Shown here: in pieces, positions 8,494 to 15,908 of the stretch | Layout: each line of letters begins with the position of its first letter | Numbering within the stretch: the first letter of the stretch is position 1 | Source of the DNA: a virus | Reading direction: 5' to 3' (one strand) | IMG/VR virus record: IMGVR_UViG_3300029319_000467 | Span: 1 to 20,598 of that record | Length of the DNA stretch: 20,598 bases | Translations under genes and position numbers: made by a program | The notes under the pieces: generated by a model | Told to the model about the DNA's origin: nothing | What the model saw: only the letters and a program-made list of their open reading frames with translations | Database searches by the model: none

Positions 8494-11193
8494 GTGGCTA
8501 AATTCATTACATTCAATGGCGTAACGCTCTATCACCCAGGCGGTCTTACTAAGATTGATGCCGCTGGGCTTGCACAGGTGGGTAGTGGAGTATCTGGTAT
8601 TGTTGGTGTTATTGGTGAGGCTGATGCTGGCCAACCTTGTACTGCAGCAGACCCAAAGGTTTACGAGTTTACAGATCCATCGGCTGCGATTGAAGTGTTT
8701 AAGACAGGACCTATGGCAGACGCTATAGATTTCTTGTTTAACCCGTCAAACGATGTCCGTATTCCTGGGGGCGCTCAAAAAGTAATTTGTGTTAAAACAA
8801 ACGCAAGTACTCAAAGTAGTGTAACTTTGCCTCTCGCAAATGATAACTCAAAGAATGCCATTACAGTTCAGTCTGTTGATTACGGTGTAAACACTGCAGG
8901 AATTCAGGTAAAAGTAAGCCAGAATGCTACAGATGACGACAAGTTTGATGCTACGGTTAACGATACTGTTAACGGAGTAGTTGAATCGTTTACCTCTCTT
9001 GGTGGTAAAGCGTTAATGAACGTTAAGTACCAAGGACCATCCGATCCTGTTGTAGTAGAAACATTAACCGCCACAGATACTGATAATACCATTCTTACGG
9101 CAAGTGCGGGAATTGGTAACGCTAAGGCTGGTCAATGGGTTAGGATTAAGTCCGGTGCCCAATCAGACGTGAATGGTCAGATTCGAAGAATCACCAGTGT
9201 GGATGCTGGTGAAAATAGAATTTTTGTTGAGCCTGCCTTTTGTGACGCTAGTGGCGCACAAGTAGGTCCTTCACAGAACTGTATATTTGAGGTAATTCGA
9301 ACAGTCATTGGTCCATTTTATGTAGAATCTGGACCAGATGTTAGTAGCTTTACACTTAAATCTTTACCTAGTGCTGCGGCTCATGCTTCCGCATGGGCTG
9401 AAGGTGACCCAATTATAGCCATTAACGATGCTGCTGAATCCCTTTATGGGTCAGCTACAAACGGTCCTAATTATGTAAAGGTTGTTAGTGGTACTGGAGC
9501 AGGTCAAATAAGAAGAATTTCAAGCGTTAATGGGAATAATGACGTAACGGTTGACATAACTGTTAATGTTACACCAGCTTTCGACACGAAGTTAGATACG
9601 ACATCGCGCATTAGCTTTATTAATGCCGTACATGACGCAACCAGTGTTGCGTCTGGTCACGGAGCCTTTGGAGTTATTGAGGGGGCAAATGGCGCTGCTA
9701 GTAAGTTAATACTAAGTTTTAGACCGGGTGCTGGTGAAGATGACGGTTCGGGAACTGCTGTTGCTCTTGGTGGTGCTGGTACAGGTTATGTAGCTTACGA
9801 ATTTTCTCTTGGAAGCGCCGCTACAGTAAGCTCTGTAGTGAATAGTATCAATTCAAGTAGTGGTAATAGTAACTCTCTAAACGCTACTGCAGCCACTGCA
9901 CATAGTGCAGGAGCTTGGTCTGCACAGGTTGGTCCTGGTAGGTCTGGATTACTCACTACAGATCGCTTTGACTTCATGCTCAACGGCGGAACTGACCAAA
10001 CCACAGATCTTACGAATGGTGGTGTAGCTTCAGACGATTCAGACAAAGTTGATTTGCTTTGCGACTTCAATCAACAGTTCTCAAAAACGTTTGGTGTTTC
10101 TAGTGCTAATTCCGTAAAGAAGCATCGATTCTTGGACAACCTGGCGCAGTTAGAAGATGCATTAGACAACCAAAGTCTTATCGTAAACGCTACTCGATCT
10201 ACTTCCGGCACTGGAGATGGTGCTGGGATGCCTAAGTTCAACCCAACGTTCGCAGAGAGCCTTTCAGGCGGTGCGAAGGGAGCAAGCTCTGCTTCTACAG
10301 TTGAGTTAGCTTTTGAGCAGTTAATCAAGAAGCGTCACAACACTGCAGTCGCCCTATTTAGTAGTGACTATAGTAGTGGTGGAAACACGTTTACGATTGA
10401 TTTTGTCCATAGCCAGTTGAAAAGCCACGCTAACAACGGCGCTGGAGCACATCGGAACGAAGTGGACTGTATCGCAGCATACGATGCTTCTGTGGCTGCA
10501 TCTACAGCGTTAGTGGATACCATTGCTAAGGCTAACGGTATCAACAACAGAAACGTTGGTCTTGTGTATCAAAAGATTCAGCGACCTGCATTGGACGGAA
10601 GCAACAAGGTGTTTGGTCCAGAGATGCTTGCCTGTGCTCTTGCCGGTATGCAAGCTGGAGCCACAGTCGGTGAGCCTCTGACATTCAAGTTTGTTAATGC
10701 TTTGGACATCGTTAGCCCTGTGAATGCAGATCCTCAAGACAAAAACGATTCTGATCAACTGCTCCAGAACTCAGTTCTGTTCTGTGAGAAGGTGCAGGGT
10801 CAAGGGTTCCGAGTGGTTAGAAACTACTCGACATACGCTCAAGACGATAATTTAGCGTTCACAGAGCGCCATGTTAACGCTGAGTTGAACTACATGGCTT
10901 ATGACCTGAGAACTTTTATTGAAGATCGCTTCACAGGTCTTAAGGCAACCCCAGCTACTGTTGCGAATATCAAGAGTGCTGTTGTCTCCAAGTTGGAGGT
11001 CTACAAGCGTGACCTTGAGATTATCGTAGATAGTAACGATCCAGTTACCGGTGCGGTACTAAACGCATACCGGAATTTAAAAGTTACCATTTCGGGTGAT
11101 ATAGCTACAATTCGCTTTGAGATATTCCCGACAATTGGTATTAATTACTTCAAGTTTGATATTGTTGCACAACTACCAACAATTAGCGCATAA
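8494..11193 (+). CDS. Tail sheath protein, unusually large
   Basis: GTG start after GGGAGA (8482-8487). At 899 residues it is longer than most sheaths (roughly 400-700). The N-terminus (VTLYHPGGLTKIDAAGL, VGVIGEADAG, FTDPSAAIEVFKTGP, DAIDFLFNPS) and the C-terminus (QNSVLFCEKVQGQGFRVVRNYST, then LNYMAYDLRTFIEDRFTG, LEVYKRDLEIIVD and a final strand pair) match the conserved sheath core, whose C-terminal domain interlocks neighbouring subunits and drives contraction. Between them, about residues 205-500, lie extra beta-rich regions including two copies of a module with GQIRRI(T/S)SV. These insertions probably project from the tail surface. The protein assembles around the tube encoded further downstream. 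Confidence 0.9.
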   Translation: MAKFITFNGVTLYHPGGLTKIDAAGLAQVGSGVSGIVGVIGEADAGQPCTAADPKVYEFTDPSAAIEVFKTGPMADAIDFLFNPSNDVRIPGGAQKVICVKTNASTQSSVTLPLANDNSKNAITVQSVDYGVNTAGIQVKVSQNATDDDKFDATVNDTVNGVVESFTSLGGKALMNVKYQGPSDPVVVETLTATDTDNTILTASAGIGNAKAGQWVRIKSGAQSDVNGQIRRITSVDAGENRIFVEPAFCDASGAQVGPSQNCIFEVIRTVIGPFYVESGPDVSSFTLKSLPSAAAHASAWAEGDPIIAINDAAESLYGSATNGPNYVKVVSGTGAGQIRRISSVNGNNDVTVDITVNVTPAFDTKLDTTSRISFINAVHDATSVASGHGAFGVIEGANGAASKLILSFRPGAGEDDGSGTAVALGGAGTGYVAYEFSLGSAATVSSVVNSINSSSGNSNSLNATAATAHSAGAWSAQVGPGRSGLLTTDRFDFMLNGGTDQTTDLTNGGVASDDSDKVDLLCDFNQQFSKTFGVSSANSVKKHRFLDNLAQLEDALDNQSLIVNATRSTSGTGDGAGMPKFNPTFAESLSGGAKGASSASTVELAFEQLIKKRHNTAVALFSSDYSSGGNTFTIDFVHSQLKSHANNGAGAHRNEVDCIAAYDASVAASTALVDTIAKANGINNRNVGLVYQKIQRPALDGSNKVFGPEMLACALAGMQAGATVGEPLTFKFVNALDIVSPVNADPQDKNDSDQLLQNSVLFCEKVQGQGFRVVRNYSTYAQDDNLAFTERHVNAELNYMAYDLRTFIEDRFTGLKATPATVANIKSAVVSKLEVYKRDLEIIVDSNDPVTGAVLNAYRNLKVTISGDIATIRFEIFPTIGINYFKFDIVAQLPTISA
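9121..9303 (+). repeat. Beta module in sheath insertion, copy 1
   Basis: Codes for residues ~210-270 of the sheath: WVRIKSG, then GQIRRITSV, VEPAF and IFEVIRT. It aligns with the module at 9469-9621 around SG...GQIRRI-SV-x-N/G and a following strand. Relationship is visible in protein only; DNA identity is low. Confidence 0.6.
9469..9621 (+). repeat. Beta module in sheath insertion, copy 2
   Basis: Codes for residues ~326-376: YVKVVSGTGAGQIRRISSV, a polar turn, then VTPAFDTKLDTTSRISFI. The SGTGAGQ-R-I-SV motif is common in surface modules of phage structural proteins. Together with copy 1 it indicates an internal duplication inside the sheath insertion. Confidence 0.6.
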
Positions 11194-11204
11194 GGAGAGC
11201 CACG

Positions 11205-12698
11205 ATGGCAGCTATTACATCACTCAGTGACGCGGCACAAACCGAATTCATTAAGCTACGTCATAAATACTTGAATGGCTCCGGTGAGCTTATCCAAGCA
11301 GGTACTAAAATATTACAGTCAGGAACTTTTCCAGACGTGCTCAGTACTTCAGTTATGGGGAAAGGTTTTCTTCAGGAAGCTAGTTTAACTGGTGCTAGGG
11401 AGCTTGTACTCCAGTCTGCGTCTGAAGCTGCACAGTTTAAAGTTGGAGACACACTACACTGCTTTACCACTGCTGGTGCTGCTGAATTTACAGCAGTGCT
11501 TGTTGAGGGTGTAAAAGGGCAGAAGGTTCTTGTTGAAGCAACAAGCGGGGCTGCTTCTGCTGGCTCTATCTGCGTTAAGTTTGCTGACGGACAAGTTGGC
11601 GGTCAGGCATCTGGAGATTCTGCTGGAATTGCTTATGTTGGTGCTGGGGATGTGGCTGCTTTCCTGCAAGCGATTCAAGATAACATTACTAATGTGATGT
11701 ATACTGGTGATATCGATATCGACGCTACTGCTTCTGCTGATGATGGTATTTATTCTGTACTTCAAACATCCACTGACGTACCAACTACGGGTGGCGGATT
11801 GACACCTAACGCTGCCCTTTTGAACGGTGACTTGGTTACTTTCAAAACATCGCCAGCCGCTTTGGTAGGATGTACTGCCCGTATTATTAAACACACTACA
11901 GGAACTGCCGTAACGATAACAGTTGGGGATATTAGAGATTCCAATGGTACGTTTCTTGGAAATCAGTTTCCTGTAGCAACTTCTGCTGCCCATAGTGGTG
12001 GGGCGAGTGCCTCAGTGTCCCCAGATACTGATACTCAAGCAACACTTGCCTCTGGCAAGGCTGACAAGTACATTCGACAGCTTTCCGGTTCTACCTCCTA
12101 CCCAACACCTGAGTTACAGGGCGGAGTGGAGAACTCAAATGACCCCGGAGCTTCAAATGTTCTCGTGACTGCGTTGTTTGAGATGTTACAACACTTCTCA
12201 CCAACTGGTGGTGAGGGTGCTGGAGACCAGGAGCTTATCCCTGCAGATCTTGAAGAGAAACTCTTTGGATCTATGGTTAAAGGCAGCGTTTCGAACTTGG
12301 GCACTGCTCAAGGAAAGCGAGTTAGACTCGCCGCAGCCGCTGCGTCTGGAGACTCATCCCTCACCGTGGAAAAGGACAACTTAGTTAATGATGTTCCGTT
12401 TCCGTTAAGTGGTAGTGTGAGAGTCTTTAACAATCGTGGTCAAGGCAATACACAAGGTATTGATGGTGCTGGAGTAAGCGCAAATAAGACCTTTACTAGA
12501 ACTAAAAGAAGCGACGTACTTTCTCTTGGATCAAATATTGGTATTACCTGTAAAGTCGGGGATATTGTAGAGTTGCTTCCAGCACACGGAATGATTAAGA
12601 AGCCAATCGCTTCTCAAATCTCCGGTGAAGACATGGTTACTATCATGATGGCTATGCGGAACTGCATAAAGACAATTCCTACTATCACTGTTGACTAG
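11205..12698 (+). CDS. Beta-rich structural protein of unknown role, between sheath and tube genes
   Basis: Strong AAGGAGA (11192-11198) before the ATG. A 497-residue protein rich in Ala, Gly, Ser and Thr, with few aromatic residues. It starts with a helix (LSDAAQTEFIKLRHKYLNG), then shows repeated beta segments with FKVGDTLHCF, LNGDLVTFKTS and CKVGDIVELLP, suggesting several small barrels or decoration modules in series. A central helical stretch (NVLVTALFEMLQHF) and a C-terminal helix (GEDMVTIMMAMRNCIKT) are also present. I do not recognise a family. Its location between sheath and tube, and its tight link to the sheath gene, point to a tail or virion surface component. It is less likely to be enzymatic, as no catalytic motif is visible. 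Confidence 0.7.
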   Translation: MAAITSLSDAAQTEFIKLRHKYLNGSGELIQAGTKILQSGTFPDVLSTSVMGKGFLQEASLTGARELVLQSASEAAQFKVGDTLHCFTTAGAAEFTAVLVEGVKGQKVLVEATSGAASAGSICVKFADGQVGGQASGDSAGIAYVGAGDVAAFLQAIQDNITNVMYTGDIDIDATASADDGIYSVLQTSTDVPTTGGGLTPNAALLNGDLVTFKTSPAALVGCTARIIKHTTGTAVTITVGDIRDSNGTFLGNQFPVATSAAHSGGASASVSPDTDTQATLASGKADKYIRQLSGSTSYPTPELQGGVENSNDPGASNVLVTALFEMLQHFSPTGGEGAGDQELIPADLEEKLFGSMVKGSVSNLGTAQGKRVRLAAAAASGDSSLTVEKDNLVNDVPFPLSGSVRVFNNRGQGNTQGIDGAGVSANKTFTRTKRSDVLSLGSNIGITCKVGDIVELLPAHGMIKKPIASQISGEDMVTIMMAMRNCIKTIPTITVD

Positions 12699-12846: not shown

Positions 12847-13305
12847 GTGGCTAAAGAAATTTTTACTGGTGCGAGGGCCAGATTTTTCCTCGATGATGTA
12901 CCTATTGGATATTGTGCTGGCGTTAGTGGCGAAGAGGCTATTGACTATGAACCAGTTGACACATTAGAGTTCTTACAAGTTCGAGAGCATGTTCCTGTAG
13001 CGTATCGTGCTTCGATGAGTGCTGCGTTCTTCCGTCTTATTGGATCTTCTTTGAAGGAGTATGCTGGTAAGGATGAAGATGCGGGTGGGAAAGAGATTTT
13101 CCCGAAGTTCAATAACATTCTTTTATCGGGTGCCATGACTGCTGCGATTATCGAAACAAAAAGTGATAGTCCCAGGGTCATTGCTCAGTTTCAGGATGTT
13201 CGGGCTGCGAGTAAGACGTTTGATGTTTCTTCTCGTGGAATTGTTACGGAGAACTGTTCTTTCGTTGCAATCAACATGTTCGACGAGTCTGAAATTGATA
13301 TTTAA
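12847..13305 (+). CDS. Tail tube protein
   Basis: GTG start 6 bases after TAGGAG (12835-12840). The 152-residue product matches the short tube proteins of contractile-tailed phages: FTGARARFFLDDVPIGY and GVSGEEAIDYEPVDTLEFL at the N-terminus, REHVPVAYRASMSAAFFRLIG, a middle ILLSGAMTAAIIE strand, and a C-terminal TFDVSSRGIVTENCSFVAINMFDESE. These form a beta-sandwich that stacks in hexamer rings around the tape measure and carries DNA into the cell. It is preceded by the only long non-coding gap in the window and followed by the tail assembly chaperone genes, the standard order. Confidence 0.88.
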   Translation: MAKEIFTGARARFFLDDVPIGYCAGVSGEEAIDYEPVDTLEFLQVREHVPVAYRASMSAAFFRLIGSSLKEYAGKDEDAGGKEIFPKFNNILLSGAMTAAIIETKSDSPRVIAQFQDVRAASKTFDVSSRGIVTENCSFVAINMFDESEIDI

Positions 13306-13331: not shown

Positions 13332-13805
13332 ATGAATCAGCTTACAAAGACCTTTCATATAGATGTTGTTTCGAAAGTAGACAACCGCAGATACCAAGGG
13401 TCATTTACTACTAAAAAGCTCACCATGGGCGATCTATCTAAGATGGGTATGCTTAAAGCAAGATTGGGCGGTGGCTTCAACTATGACCCTTCAACAGGTC
13501 AAGGTCTTGATGCTGCCACCAATCTCCTTAACGAGATGATTGTTCATTGTAATGTTGCTTTGGTACAGAAGCCTGACTGGTTTGATCCTGAGAACATGAG
13601 TGACGTGAACGTGCTTCAGCAAGTTTACGAGGAGGTGGCTTCTTTTGAGGCCAACTTTCACGCAGCAGAACCCCAAGTTGGAGGGGAAGGATCTTCTGGA
13701 GGCGGCGAAGACCCAGGCAGCATTGAACTTGAAGGGTCACGGAGATCCGCTGACGCGCATCAGGATTTGGTGGACAAAAAAGTACCAAAGATCTCCCAAC
13801 TCTGA
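13332..13805 (+). CDS. Tail assembly chaperone, short (G-type) form
   Basis: GGGAGA (13320-13325) precedes the ATG. The 157-residue product has the usual G-protein core: an N-terminal strand pair (FHIDVVSK, YQGSFTTKKLT), a helix with MGDLSKMGMLKARLGGG, a GLDAATNLLNEMIVHCNVALVQKPDWFDP segment, and VLQQVYEEVASFEANF at about 97-112. Beyond residue 114 it becomes Gly/Ser/Glu-rich and low in predicted structure, where a second frame takes over with conserved-looking coding. In known phages the short form, in excess, coats the tape measure during tail assembly together with a longer frameshifted product. Its 3' end overlaps the next frame by 161 bases. Confidence 0.85.
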   Translation: MNQLTKTFHIDVVSKVDNRRYQGSFTTKKLTMGDLSKMGMLKARLGGGFNYDPSTGQGLDAATNLLNEMIVHCNVALVQKPDWFDPENMSDVNVLQQVYEEVASFEANFHAAEPQVGGEGSSGGGEDPGSIELEGSRRSADAHQDLVDKKVPKISQL

Positions 13806-14121
13806 GGAGTTTAAGAGTTATACGTTCTTTCAGCTTCTGACTGAATTCTTTGAAGATTACTTCGAAGAGAAGCCTGAAGCTATGAAGGGGTTAGATCTCC
13901 CAGCTAGTCAATTTGGCGATGATGTCATTGATAAGTGGGAGCGTGAGGTTGAACAGGGGCTTACCCCAGACCTGCTTGAGGATCTCACTCCTGAGCAGGG
14001 AAGACACTTACGTTCGTGGAGTCGTCGAGTTGGAAAGCTCAAGAGAGATCGAGGCGGCATAGGATATAGTCCTCCTAAGTCAGAGAGTGTTGGCGAAGAA
14101 GTATATAGGGAAGAGTTCTAA
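13645..14121 (+). CDS. Tail assembly chaperone, T-type extension (+1 frame)
   Basis: This frame is open from 13609 to 14121 and is shifted +1 (equivalently -2) relative to the short chaperone. It encodes KDLLEAAKTQAAL, a WWTKKYQRSPNSEEF motif, then FFQLLTEFFEDYFEE and a charged C-terminus, a typical T-domain pattern of tail assembly chaperones. It is probably made as a fusion: slipping on CCC.C (13671-13674) would join residues 1-114 of the short form to 148 residues here, 262 in all. An independent start is also plausible: TTG at 13645 lies 8 bases after a perfect AGGAGGT (13630-13636), giving 158 residues. The T part is known to bridge the chaperone-coated tape measure to tube protein. The stop overlaps the tape measure ATG by one base. 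Confidence 0.8.
   Translation: MRPTFTQQNPKLEGKDLLEAAKTQAALNLKGHGDPLTRIRIWWTKKYQRSPNSEEFKSYTFFQLLTEFFEDYFEEKPEAMKGLDLPASQFGDDVIDKWEREVEQGLTPDLLEDLTPEQGRHLRSWSRRVGKLKRDRGGIGYSPPKSESVGEEVYREEF
13671..13686 (+). other. Candidate +1 ribosomal frameshift sites
   Basis: In the short chaperone frame the codons are GAA CCC CAA GTT GGA GGG GAA. CCC followed by C (13671-13674) lets tRNA-Pro re-pair one base forward and continue at AAG (13675). GGG followed by G (13683-13686) permits the same with tRNA-Gly, continuing at AAG (13687). Both lead into the T frame. No -1 slippery heptamer would reach that frame. CCC.N is a known class of +1 site. Confidence 0.55.
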
Positions 14122-15908
14122 TGGCAGATGATTCAAAGAGACTAGTAGAACTAAATACCCAACTAGCTGACCTCGCTGATAAGTCGTCACAGTTAGAGAA
14201 AGAACTACAAAAAATAAAGATGGCGGGGCAGGGTATCGGCACAACCCTACCTCACAACTTTAGAAAAGCTTCTGCTGCTGTAGATCAACTCTCTGCAAAA
14301 ATAAAGCAATTGGAAACCGCGCAGAATCGTCTTGCAACTTCGGGAGGGGCTGTCGGCGCTGCCCGAATTAGTGCGGCGCACTCAACCTTGACAGGATTAG
14401 GTCGCGGTGGAGGCGGATACGGAAGTAGTGGTGGGTTTATGCCATTCCCCCAAAACCCGTTTCCTGGGAGAATGGATGAAATCCCACGAGGAGGTGGAGG
14501 AGGTTCCGGTGGCAATCTGCTAACAAGACTCATGGCAAAGATTCTTGAGATGGCAGGATCGGCTGCGAAAAGAGCTATTGGAGGCTCTATGGGTGCTGCT
14601 TACCAATCTAGTATTATGGCCATACGAAATAGGCAAAGCTTTGAAGAGCAGACAAGATTTCTTCGTGCTGGAAGTTTAGAGCAGGGGATAGGGTCTCTTG
14701 GTAATTTAATAGATAGTGAGACCGGCAACCTAGTCGCATACCATGGATATAACGCTAGAGAGTCTGCAGCACACAGGATTCAATTACTTCGCGCTGCTGG
14801 GGGTATGAGTGAAGAGTTGTCTCCTATGGTTGGTACAGAAAAAGCTTTTCAGGCGATGAGTAATCGTTTGAGGAATCCTGTACAAAATTTAATTGGGGCT
14901 GCTGGTGTTCTTGCAGGTGGCGGTTTTGAGGCAGAAGACTCAATAAAAGTTCTTCAAAGAATACAAACGACTTTAGAGAACATTGAAGGTATTAACAGTC
15001 AAACTCCAGAGTATCTTAGAACGTCATCTATTTATTTAGATTCTCTTCAGCAATTAGCTCAACAACAGTTAGCAGTGTCTGGAGCTTTAAGTCAGGCTCA
15101 AATGGGGGCTTTTCAAGGTGTTGTGAGTAAATTAAGTACTGACGCTGGATTTGATCCAACACAAGCCTCTGCCATAGCTAATATTATGCAGCAGAGAACG
15201 ATATCTCCTGGCGGTGGCGCTGCTGGTGAGATATTCCAGATGCAAGCGTTTGGTTTCGCAAACGCAAACATAGGTGCTTTTAAAAAAACTGCTCAAGCAA
15301 GGGGTATAGATCCAGCCATATTTAAACGACGAGGTCTTTTTGAGTATAGGGACTTTATGGAGAATGCAACTCTGGCTCAAAAAGCACAGGCTTACATGGT
15401 GGGTCTTGAGACGAAATTTGGTAATCGGCCTGACGCTATGGCGTACATACTTGGTACGTCACTTATGCCAGAGCTTGGTCAGACAAGAGCGCGTGAGTTG
15501 GTGGGGATGTACCAACGCGGCGGTTTGAGTACCGCACAAATAGAACAGTACATGAAAGAATCACCTGCTGGAGCTACTGAGTCTGCTCTGGACGTAGCGA
15601 AATCAGGTACTACTGAACAGACAGCTACTTTTATGAAGTTTAAAAATGTTCATGACGCATATGCAGATACGATACTTGAATTTGGTGGAAAAGGTGGTTT
15701 AGAGAGTCTTAACTCTATAAATCAAGCATTAAGAGACTTTCAAATTACGCTTGCAAGTGTGGCTTCAAATATAGGGAATATAGAACTTATAAAAGAATTA
15801 CTTGCAGCGGCGGCAGGTTTGTCGGGTAAGGCAGGTGCTTTCGCCAACACTAGCCCTAGAGAGGTAGTTGTTCCTCCAGAGGTTAGAACAAATAATACTA
15901 CCCCTTAG
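14121..15908 (+). CDS. Tail tape measure protein
   Basis: The ATG shares a base with the T-frame stop and has GGGAAG (14108-14113) 7 bases ahead. The 595-residue product opens with a coiled coil (about 5-70: LVELNTQLADLADKSSQLEKELQ), then a Gly-rich flexible stretch (about 94-135), and is otherwise mainly helical with Ala/Gln/Leu-rich segments such as LDSLQQLAQQQLAVSGALSQ. Position after the chaperone pair and before the baseplate hub is diagnostic. Using the family rule of about 0.15 nm per residue, tail length would be near 90 nm, a moderate value. I see no peptidase, lysozyme or transglycosylase motif. A hydrophobic patch (NLIGAAGVLAGGGF) could be the membrane-active segment seen in some tape measures. 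Confidence 0.78.
   Translation: MADDSKRLVELNTQLADLADKSSQLEKELQKIKMAGQGIGTTLPHNFRKASAAVDQLSAKIKQLETAQNRLATSGGAVGAARISAAHSTLTGLGRGGGGYGSSGGFMPFPQNPFPGRMDEIPRGGGGGSGGNLLTRLMAKILEMAGSAAKRAIGGSMGAAYQSSIMAIRNRQSFEEQTRFLRAGSLEQGIGSLGNLIDSETGNLVAYHGYNARESAAHRIQLLRAAGGMSEELSPMVGTEKAFQAMSNRLRNPVQNLIGAAGVLAGGGFEAEDSIKVLQRIQTTLENIEGINSQTPEYLRTSSIYLDSLQQLAQQQLAVSGALSQAQMGAFQGVVSKLSTDAGFDPTQASAIANIMQQRTISPGGGAAGEIFQMQAFGFANANIGAFKKTAQARGIDPAIFKRRGLFEYRDFMENATLAQKAQAYMVGLETKFGNRPDAMAYILGTSLMPELGQTRARELVGMYQRGGLSTAQIEQYMKESPAGATESALDVAKSGTTEQTATFMKFKNVHDAYADTILEFGGKGGLESLNSINQALRDFQITLASVASNIGNIELIKELLAAAAGLSGKAGAFANTSPREVVVPPEVRTNNTTP

Follow-up and report, generated by a model that had tools for sequence, protein, structure and literature searches.

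A conserved UUU_C site and probable +1 frameshifting in the tail-assembly chaperone gene of an uncultured contractile-tailed phage

How does a phage translate a tail-assembly chaperone gene whose two halves lie in different reading frames? We studied this question in a stretch of 20,598 nucleotides (nt), hereafter the window, of IMGVR_UViG_3300029319_000467, a virus record of 25,206 bases from an uncultured, contractile-tailed phage. Here the tail assembly chaperone G occupies positions 13332 to 13805 of the plus strand (frame 0, 157 amino acids), and a second plus-strand frame, T, lies open from 13609, just after a TGA at 13606-13608, to 14121. The two frames overlap by 197 nt. They confirm what an earlier note had claimed from the letters alone, namely that T lies one base forward of G (+1, equivalently -2) instead of at the usual -1, and that a +1 shift yields a fusion of 262 residues. 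Our reading, held with high confidence on the basis of sequence comparison, is that 13332-14121 is one chaperone gene expressed by programmed +1 frameshifting at UUU_C, 13656-13659. Two chaperones would thus very probably be made from one gene, some ribosomes skipping one base.

It first has to be asked whether the offset belongs to the gene or to the contig. The earlier note regarded an assembly indel as its main alternative, and a one-base error of assembly or sequencing within 13609-13805 would suit a metagenomic contig with a single-base offset. Searches of IMG/VR and GTDB contigs yielded 66 loci with both halves, and the offset is +1 in 63 of them. We also assembled 20 Herelleviridae representatives from cultured phages of Bacillus, Lysinibacillus, Exiguobacterium, Staphylococcus, Listeria, Enterococcus, and Lactobacillus, leaving out Bacillus phage phiBsKO1-1 (L019), whose G frame is interrupted; all 20 have the +1 offset. 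This agreement, far beyond chance, excludes a one-base assembly error in the window contig, and the chance we leave to an indel is vanishingly small. As for relatives with a continuous frame or a -1 relationship, which the note had offered as grounds for abandoning its claim, three loci (L078, L079, and L084) are at -1 against the 63 at +1. These three sequences indicate that the direction of the shift has changed within the family.

The note had also held that the second frame is truly coding and that the pair is of the G/T type. Both statements are supported, as both frames are coding. Residues 4-110 of G hit PHROG 25000, a family of tail assembly chaperones (E 1.7e-6), as do 25 of 28 homologous fusions, and T has a homolog in the T half of Herelleviridae chaperones. 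When the uncultured and the Herelleviridae fusions are compared as profiles, the two align across 151 columns, and the alignment continues through the slip Phe (HHalign E 2.6e-17). A sequence search found no relatives in the PDB. As in other G/GT chaperone genes, the G half resembles known tail chaperones and the frames overlap between the tube and tape measure genes, the second having no conserved start of its own. The -1 slippery heptamer that is usual, but not universal, in G/GT genes is not found; what is conserved here is TTT.C, at a +1 offset. Since +1 and -2 members of this class are already known, the missing heptamer is no bar to membership.

Where, then, would the ribosome slip? Among the first relatives compared, the sole common shift-prone codon was a TTT with C after it, which encodes the residue that ends the conserved G domain (residues 1-109, plus-strand positions 13332-13658). 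In the window this site is TTT.C at 13656-13659 of the plus strand, within AAC TTT CAC, so that UUU would occupy the P site and CAC the A site. The predicted 262-residue fusion reads MNQL...FEANF | TQQNPKLEGKDLL..., with FEANF | TQQNPKLEGK at the junction, and the portion of T read after the shift would be 13660-14121 of the plus strand (153 codons plus stop). In-frame TTT.C closes the G domain in 51 of the 66 loci, and five more have TTT TTC, which permits slippage too. All 40 non-redundant TTT.C homologs keep TTT at the slip Phe, for which the product of local TTT fractions, with related sequences counted as independent and codon usage derived from loci of a few kilobases, is about 10^-19.7. 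TTC.C occurs in none of the homologs with an aligned Phe. Elsewhere in G, the 28 genomes above 50% guanine plus cytosine (GC) use TTC for Phe 112 times and TTT 34 times. All 20 Herelleviridae representatives have TTT.C, followed by CGN in 19, and in ten of them the frames overlap by just 17 nt with TTT.C inside, which pins the slip site. The window therefore has the UUU P-site codon followed by C, conserved at the codon level, that characterizes UUU_C +1 sites. Two contigs of 63-66% GC keep TTT at the slip site (L037:2292 and L038:2292) though it makes up 1/28 and 0/16 of the Phe codons in the counted flanking open reading frames. At the E-site codon preceding TTT, TCC is seen 8 times in the 40 homologs (2.5 expected) and ACG 7 times (2.8 expected); the TCC bias resembles the stimulatory UCC of influenza A PA-X.

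The slip sites proposed in the earlier note, CCC.C at 13671-13674 and GGG.G at 13683-13686, are indeed present as simple +1 slippery tetramers in frame 0. However, the alignment that the note had called for finds them absent from homologs outside the nearest clade, whereas T-frame N-P-K-L residues, part of the conserved pattern NPKL.GK, are conserved upstream of and across them, and the one conserved shift-prone codon is TTT.C at 13656. We give a slip at either tetramer very little credence. Much the same low weight falls to slippage during transcription, for which the A6 run at 13776-13781 (A7 in L025 and L026) would be one place: this run does fall in the overlap, but T-frame conservation starts more than 100 nt upstream of it, and distant homologs have no such run. 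Taken in the T frame, the run gives A AAA AAG, a -1 heptamer through which shifted ribosomes could get back into frame 0, ending at 13805.

A -2 frameshift of the Mu type, at or near the site, deserves more thought, as it also leads into the T frame, adding one residue to the product, and phage Mu uses -2 in the corresponding gene (PMC5009743). At NNN TTT C, however, a -2 slip would leave tRNA-Phe mispaired, on bases that differ from homolog to homolog (AC-T, CC-T, AT-T), whereas a +1 slip gives perfect UUC pairing and accounts for the C after TTT. We therefore consider -2 improbable. In the +1 shift at UUU_C, the majority of ribosomes would remain in frame and make the 157-residue G. The single tRNA-Phe (anticodon GAA) that reads both UUU and UUC would, in the others, re-pair from UUU to UUC after slipping, and pair better there. 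By analogy with lambda, G and G-T would chaperone the tape measure protein and recruit tail tube subunits. The predicted Glu-C junction peptides differ among the routes: ANFTQQNPKLE for +1, ANFFTQQNPKLE for -2, and ANFHAAE for unshifted translation. For SPO1 the junction is predicted to be YHSF|VNQVN.

What might promote slippage at this particular codon? We scanned the G domain for codons conserved more strongly than codon usage predicts, and four stood out as extreme: E100, E101, V102, and F109. The last is the slip Phe; the other three spell AGGAGGTG, an internal Shine-Dalgarno-like element and putative stimulator at 13630-13637 of the plus strand, 26 to 19 nt upstream of the slip codon, with its AGGAGG ending 20 nt upstream of the slip site. 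The E101 codon is GAG in 26 of 26 genomes with Glu there (13.7 expected), and 21 of 23 codons at position 100 end in G (12.7 expected); for comparison, the other Glu codons of G give 196/320 (175 expected). GGAGG stands at the element's position in 23 of 40 homologs; in these the A site holds CGN 8 times and CUY or CAY 15 times, whereas in the homologs without GGAGG it holds CGN 16 times and CAU once (Fisher p 2e-4, uncorrected for phylogeny). Non-CGN A-site codons appear in several separate places in the tree, nearly always with GGAGG, and the Herelleviridae representatives inspected have CGN and no upstream element; the window has CAC in the A site. We read AGGAGGTG as a stimulator able to replace the CGN A-site codon. 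As a conserved upstream feature of the slip site it seems to be new, and we know of no Shine-Dalgarno effect at a spacing of 20 nt. Two other candidates were set aside. GAGG at -9, as a Shine-Dalgarno sequence of the prfB kind, gave a weak signal (17 GAG of 23, 12.6 expected). An upstream hairpin has a z of -3.7 in the window, but the homolog mean is just -0.9, and the complements of AGGAGGTG are not conserved.

The same element admits another reading, in which T is not fused at all. AGGAGG stands 9 nt upstream of a T-frame TTG at 13645, from which a T protein of 158 amino acids could be translated independently, and conservation of a Shine-Dalgarno-like sequence at synonymous sites would fit such a use. 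However, about half of the homologs with AGGAGG or GGAGG have no T-frame start there (L025, L028, L029, L033, L034, L041, L042, L057, L064, L066, and L068), and with the start codon unconserved we rejected initiation at 13645 as the general route to T. Moreover, the element is absent from the Herelleviridae representatives inspected, ten of the 20 have a T frame opening just 17 nt ahead of the G stop, and internal initiation leaves TTT.C unexplained. Independent translation of T is in our judgment unlikely, about on a par with the -2 slip.

Several points weigh against +1 frameshifting at UUU_C. The TTT statistic, besides its assumption of independence, draws on loci chosen for having TTT.C. 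The A-site codon of the window, CAC, is not the usual CGN found in 24 of 40 homologs, which places the window outside the UUU_CGN subtype. In GC-rich homologs the codon in the A site is not a rare one, and codon rarity there was for that reason rejected as a general cause. The same gene contains a second in-frame TTT.C (TTT CAT near residue 8), so that TTT.C alone is insufficient. Conserved RNA structure downstream of the site was not found (mean z -0.25 over 40 homologs, +1.2 in the window), and it too was rejected as a stimulator. Seven distant loci (L045, L061, L063, L069, L075, L076, and L080) have the +1 offset without TTT.C, with Trp replacing Phe; judging from their sequences, these must use some other route to T. 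Near the G end, GGG.G is seen in L069 and L075 and CCT.T in L080. Finally, the G-T fusion of the window phage is itself a prediction from sequence. What the comparison shows directly is the conserved offset, the codon-level conservation of TTT.C, and the synonymous conservation of AGGAGGTG; we infer the occurrence of the shift, its direction at the TTT codon, its efficiency, the product ratio, what AGGAGGTG does, and the function of the proteins as chaperones.

What becomes of the ribosomes that do not shift? In the window clade (12 genomes: the window, L022-L030, L032, and L034), the unshifted frame stays open for 45-50 codons beyond the slip, against medians of 2-8 codons when T-frame synonymous codons are reshuffled (P 0.003 for the window, 0.000-0.028 for the 11 relatives). 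Frame-0 amino acids are also more alike across two sub-clades than in reshuffled, likewise open sequences (z about 4); residual shared ancestry may inflate this comparison, whereas the open-frame test is made within each genome. In the window this tail is 48 residues long, a G/S/E-rich linker with a terminal VVDKK-like motif. Most of the more distant homologs, and Herelleviridae, reach a frame-0 stop within about 20 codons. The stretch 13659-13805 of the plus strand therefore probably encodes two selected proteins, the G tail in frame 0 and the start of T in frame +1, and the conserved open unshifted frame of the window clade seems to be new. A fuller proposal, which we put forward only tentatively, is that a large uncultured group related to Herelleviridae combines UUU_C with AGGAGGTG about 20 nt upstream as a stimulator in place of CGN, and that in the window clade a selected 147-nt dual-coding stretch holds the start of T and a conserved G tail of 45-50 residues. 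If true, a Shine-Dalgarno element acting on +1 slippage from about 20 nt would be a new kind of stimulator.

The surroundings of the gene are those of a tail module. The chaperone genes lie downstream of the tail sheath gene, between the plus-strand genes for the tail tube protein (12847-13305; PHROG 985 virion structural protein, E 3.5e-7, in a post-sheath position as in SPO1) and for a probable tape measure protein (14121-15908). The latter has no confident family match and owes its label to position only. The gene order of SPO1 is identical: sheath (9.1), tube (10.1), chaperone (10.2 and 11.1), and tape measure (11.2). Matches to the sheath in translated searches (tblastn) are mostly from Herelleviridae, at 26-28% identity, and with related sheath and chaperone proteins the window carries a Herelleviridae-like tail module, the comparison extending to tail genes only. 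The window sheath (8494-11193) has 899 amino acids against a family profile of 489 columns, which implies a large extra region. Between the sheath and tube genes, 11205-12698 encodes a 497-amino-acid protein without a known family, where SPO1 has nothing. A sequence search found no relatives in the PDB.

These results bear on annotation. In RefSeq and in PHROG 1316, the T half of Herelleviridae chaperones is often named RNA polymerase beta subunit, as a separate gene (e.g., L017:1892-2350, L018:1892-2362, L088:1316-1672, L090:1340-1933, L093:1280-1873, and L094:1322-1720). This label is a library-wide naming error, as the T half belongs to the extension that a +1 shift adds to the upstream chaperone. 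Annotation pipelines seek mainly -1 heptamers, and +1 tail-chaperone fusions are missed. One short site, UUU_C and mostly UUU_CGN, explains the fusion across a broad uncultured group as well as in 20/20 of the Herelleviridae representatives examined. In addition, the deep alignment provides a natural mutagenesis set, covering the A-site codon, the E-site codon, and the Shine-Dalgarno-like element, for a poorly understood +1 mechanism.

How does the locus compare with known systems? In the limited library searched, we found no paper that assigns the Herelleviridae shift to UUU_C exactly. GenBank records do annotate a +1 slippage product for SPO1 gp10.2-gp11.1 and for Adastra, and the authors of the Moonbeam genome called its +1 shift unusual (PMC4299906). 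In HF1-group haloviruses a TTT-CGC +1 site has been proposed for the tail chaperone pair (PMC7230728), and the HF2 sequence agrees with it. The SPO1 and Adastra annotations and the HF1-group proposal mean that this kind of +1 chaperone shift is already known. The window shares with SPO1 and other Herelleviridae the gene order, homologous halves, the +1 offset, and TTT.C at the homologous Phe. However, Herelleviridae have UUU_CGN in 19 of 20 cases, lack AGGAGGTG at 20 nt upstream, and carry only a short tail in frame 0, whereas UUU_CAC, AGGAGGTG, and the conserved 48-residue tail are the window's. The HF1-group haloarchaeal myoviruses likewise have a tail chaperone pair, a +1 offset, and TTT.C at the end of the first gene, but their hosts are archaeal and their A site is CGC; the likeness noted here is one of arrangement and site.

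Among better-known phages, lambda G/GT and Mu gpG/gpGT also pair a short chaperone with a rarer frameshift extension just ahead of the tape measure gene, though lambda shifts by -1 and Mu by -2, whereas the shift here would be +1. The earlier note had pointed to Listeria phage PSA: the parallel holds insofar as PSA shifts at CCC in structural genes, but these are capsid and tail-shaft genes, not a tail chaperone. The release factor 2 gene prfB uses +1 P-site slippage with an upstream Shine-Dalgarno-like sequence; the window differs in having a sense codon and a 20-nt spacer. A further mechanistic parallel lies outside phages. In influenza A PA-X, tRNA-Phe slips from UUU to UUC at UCC_UUU_CGU, as established by mass spectrometry of the junction peptide (PMC3498833). 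The P-site slippage of tRNA-Phe in PA-X and at amalgavirus UUU_CGN sites is like that proposed here, but the genes are unrelated and the ribosomes eukaryotic, so that mechanism, not homology, is what they have in common. The PA-X 9-mer is identical in SPO1, Sb-1, LysYB1, BSwM-KMM1, and the uncultured loci L039, L062, and L071, and the identity of the SPO1 and influenza A sites suggests that slippage of tRNA-Phe on UUU_C is common to bacterial and eukaryotic ribosomes.
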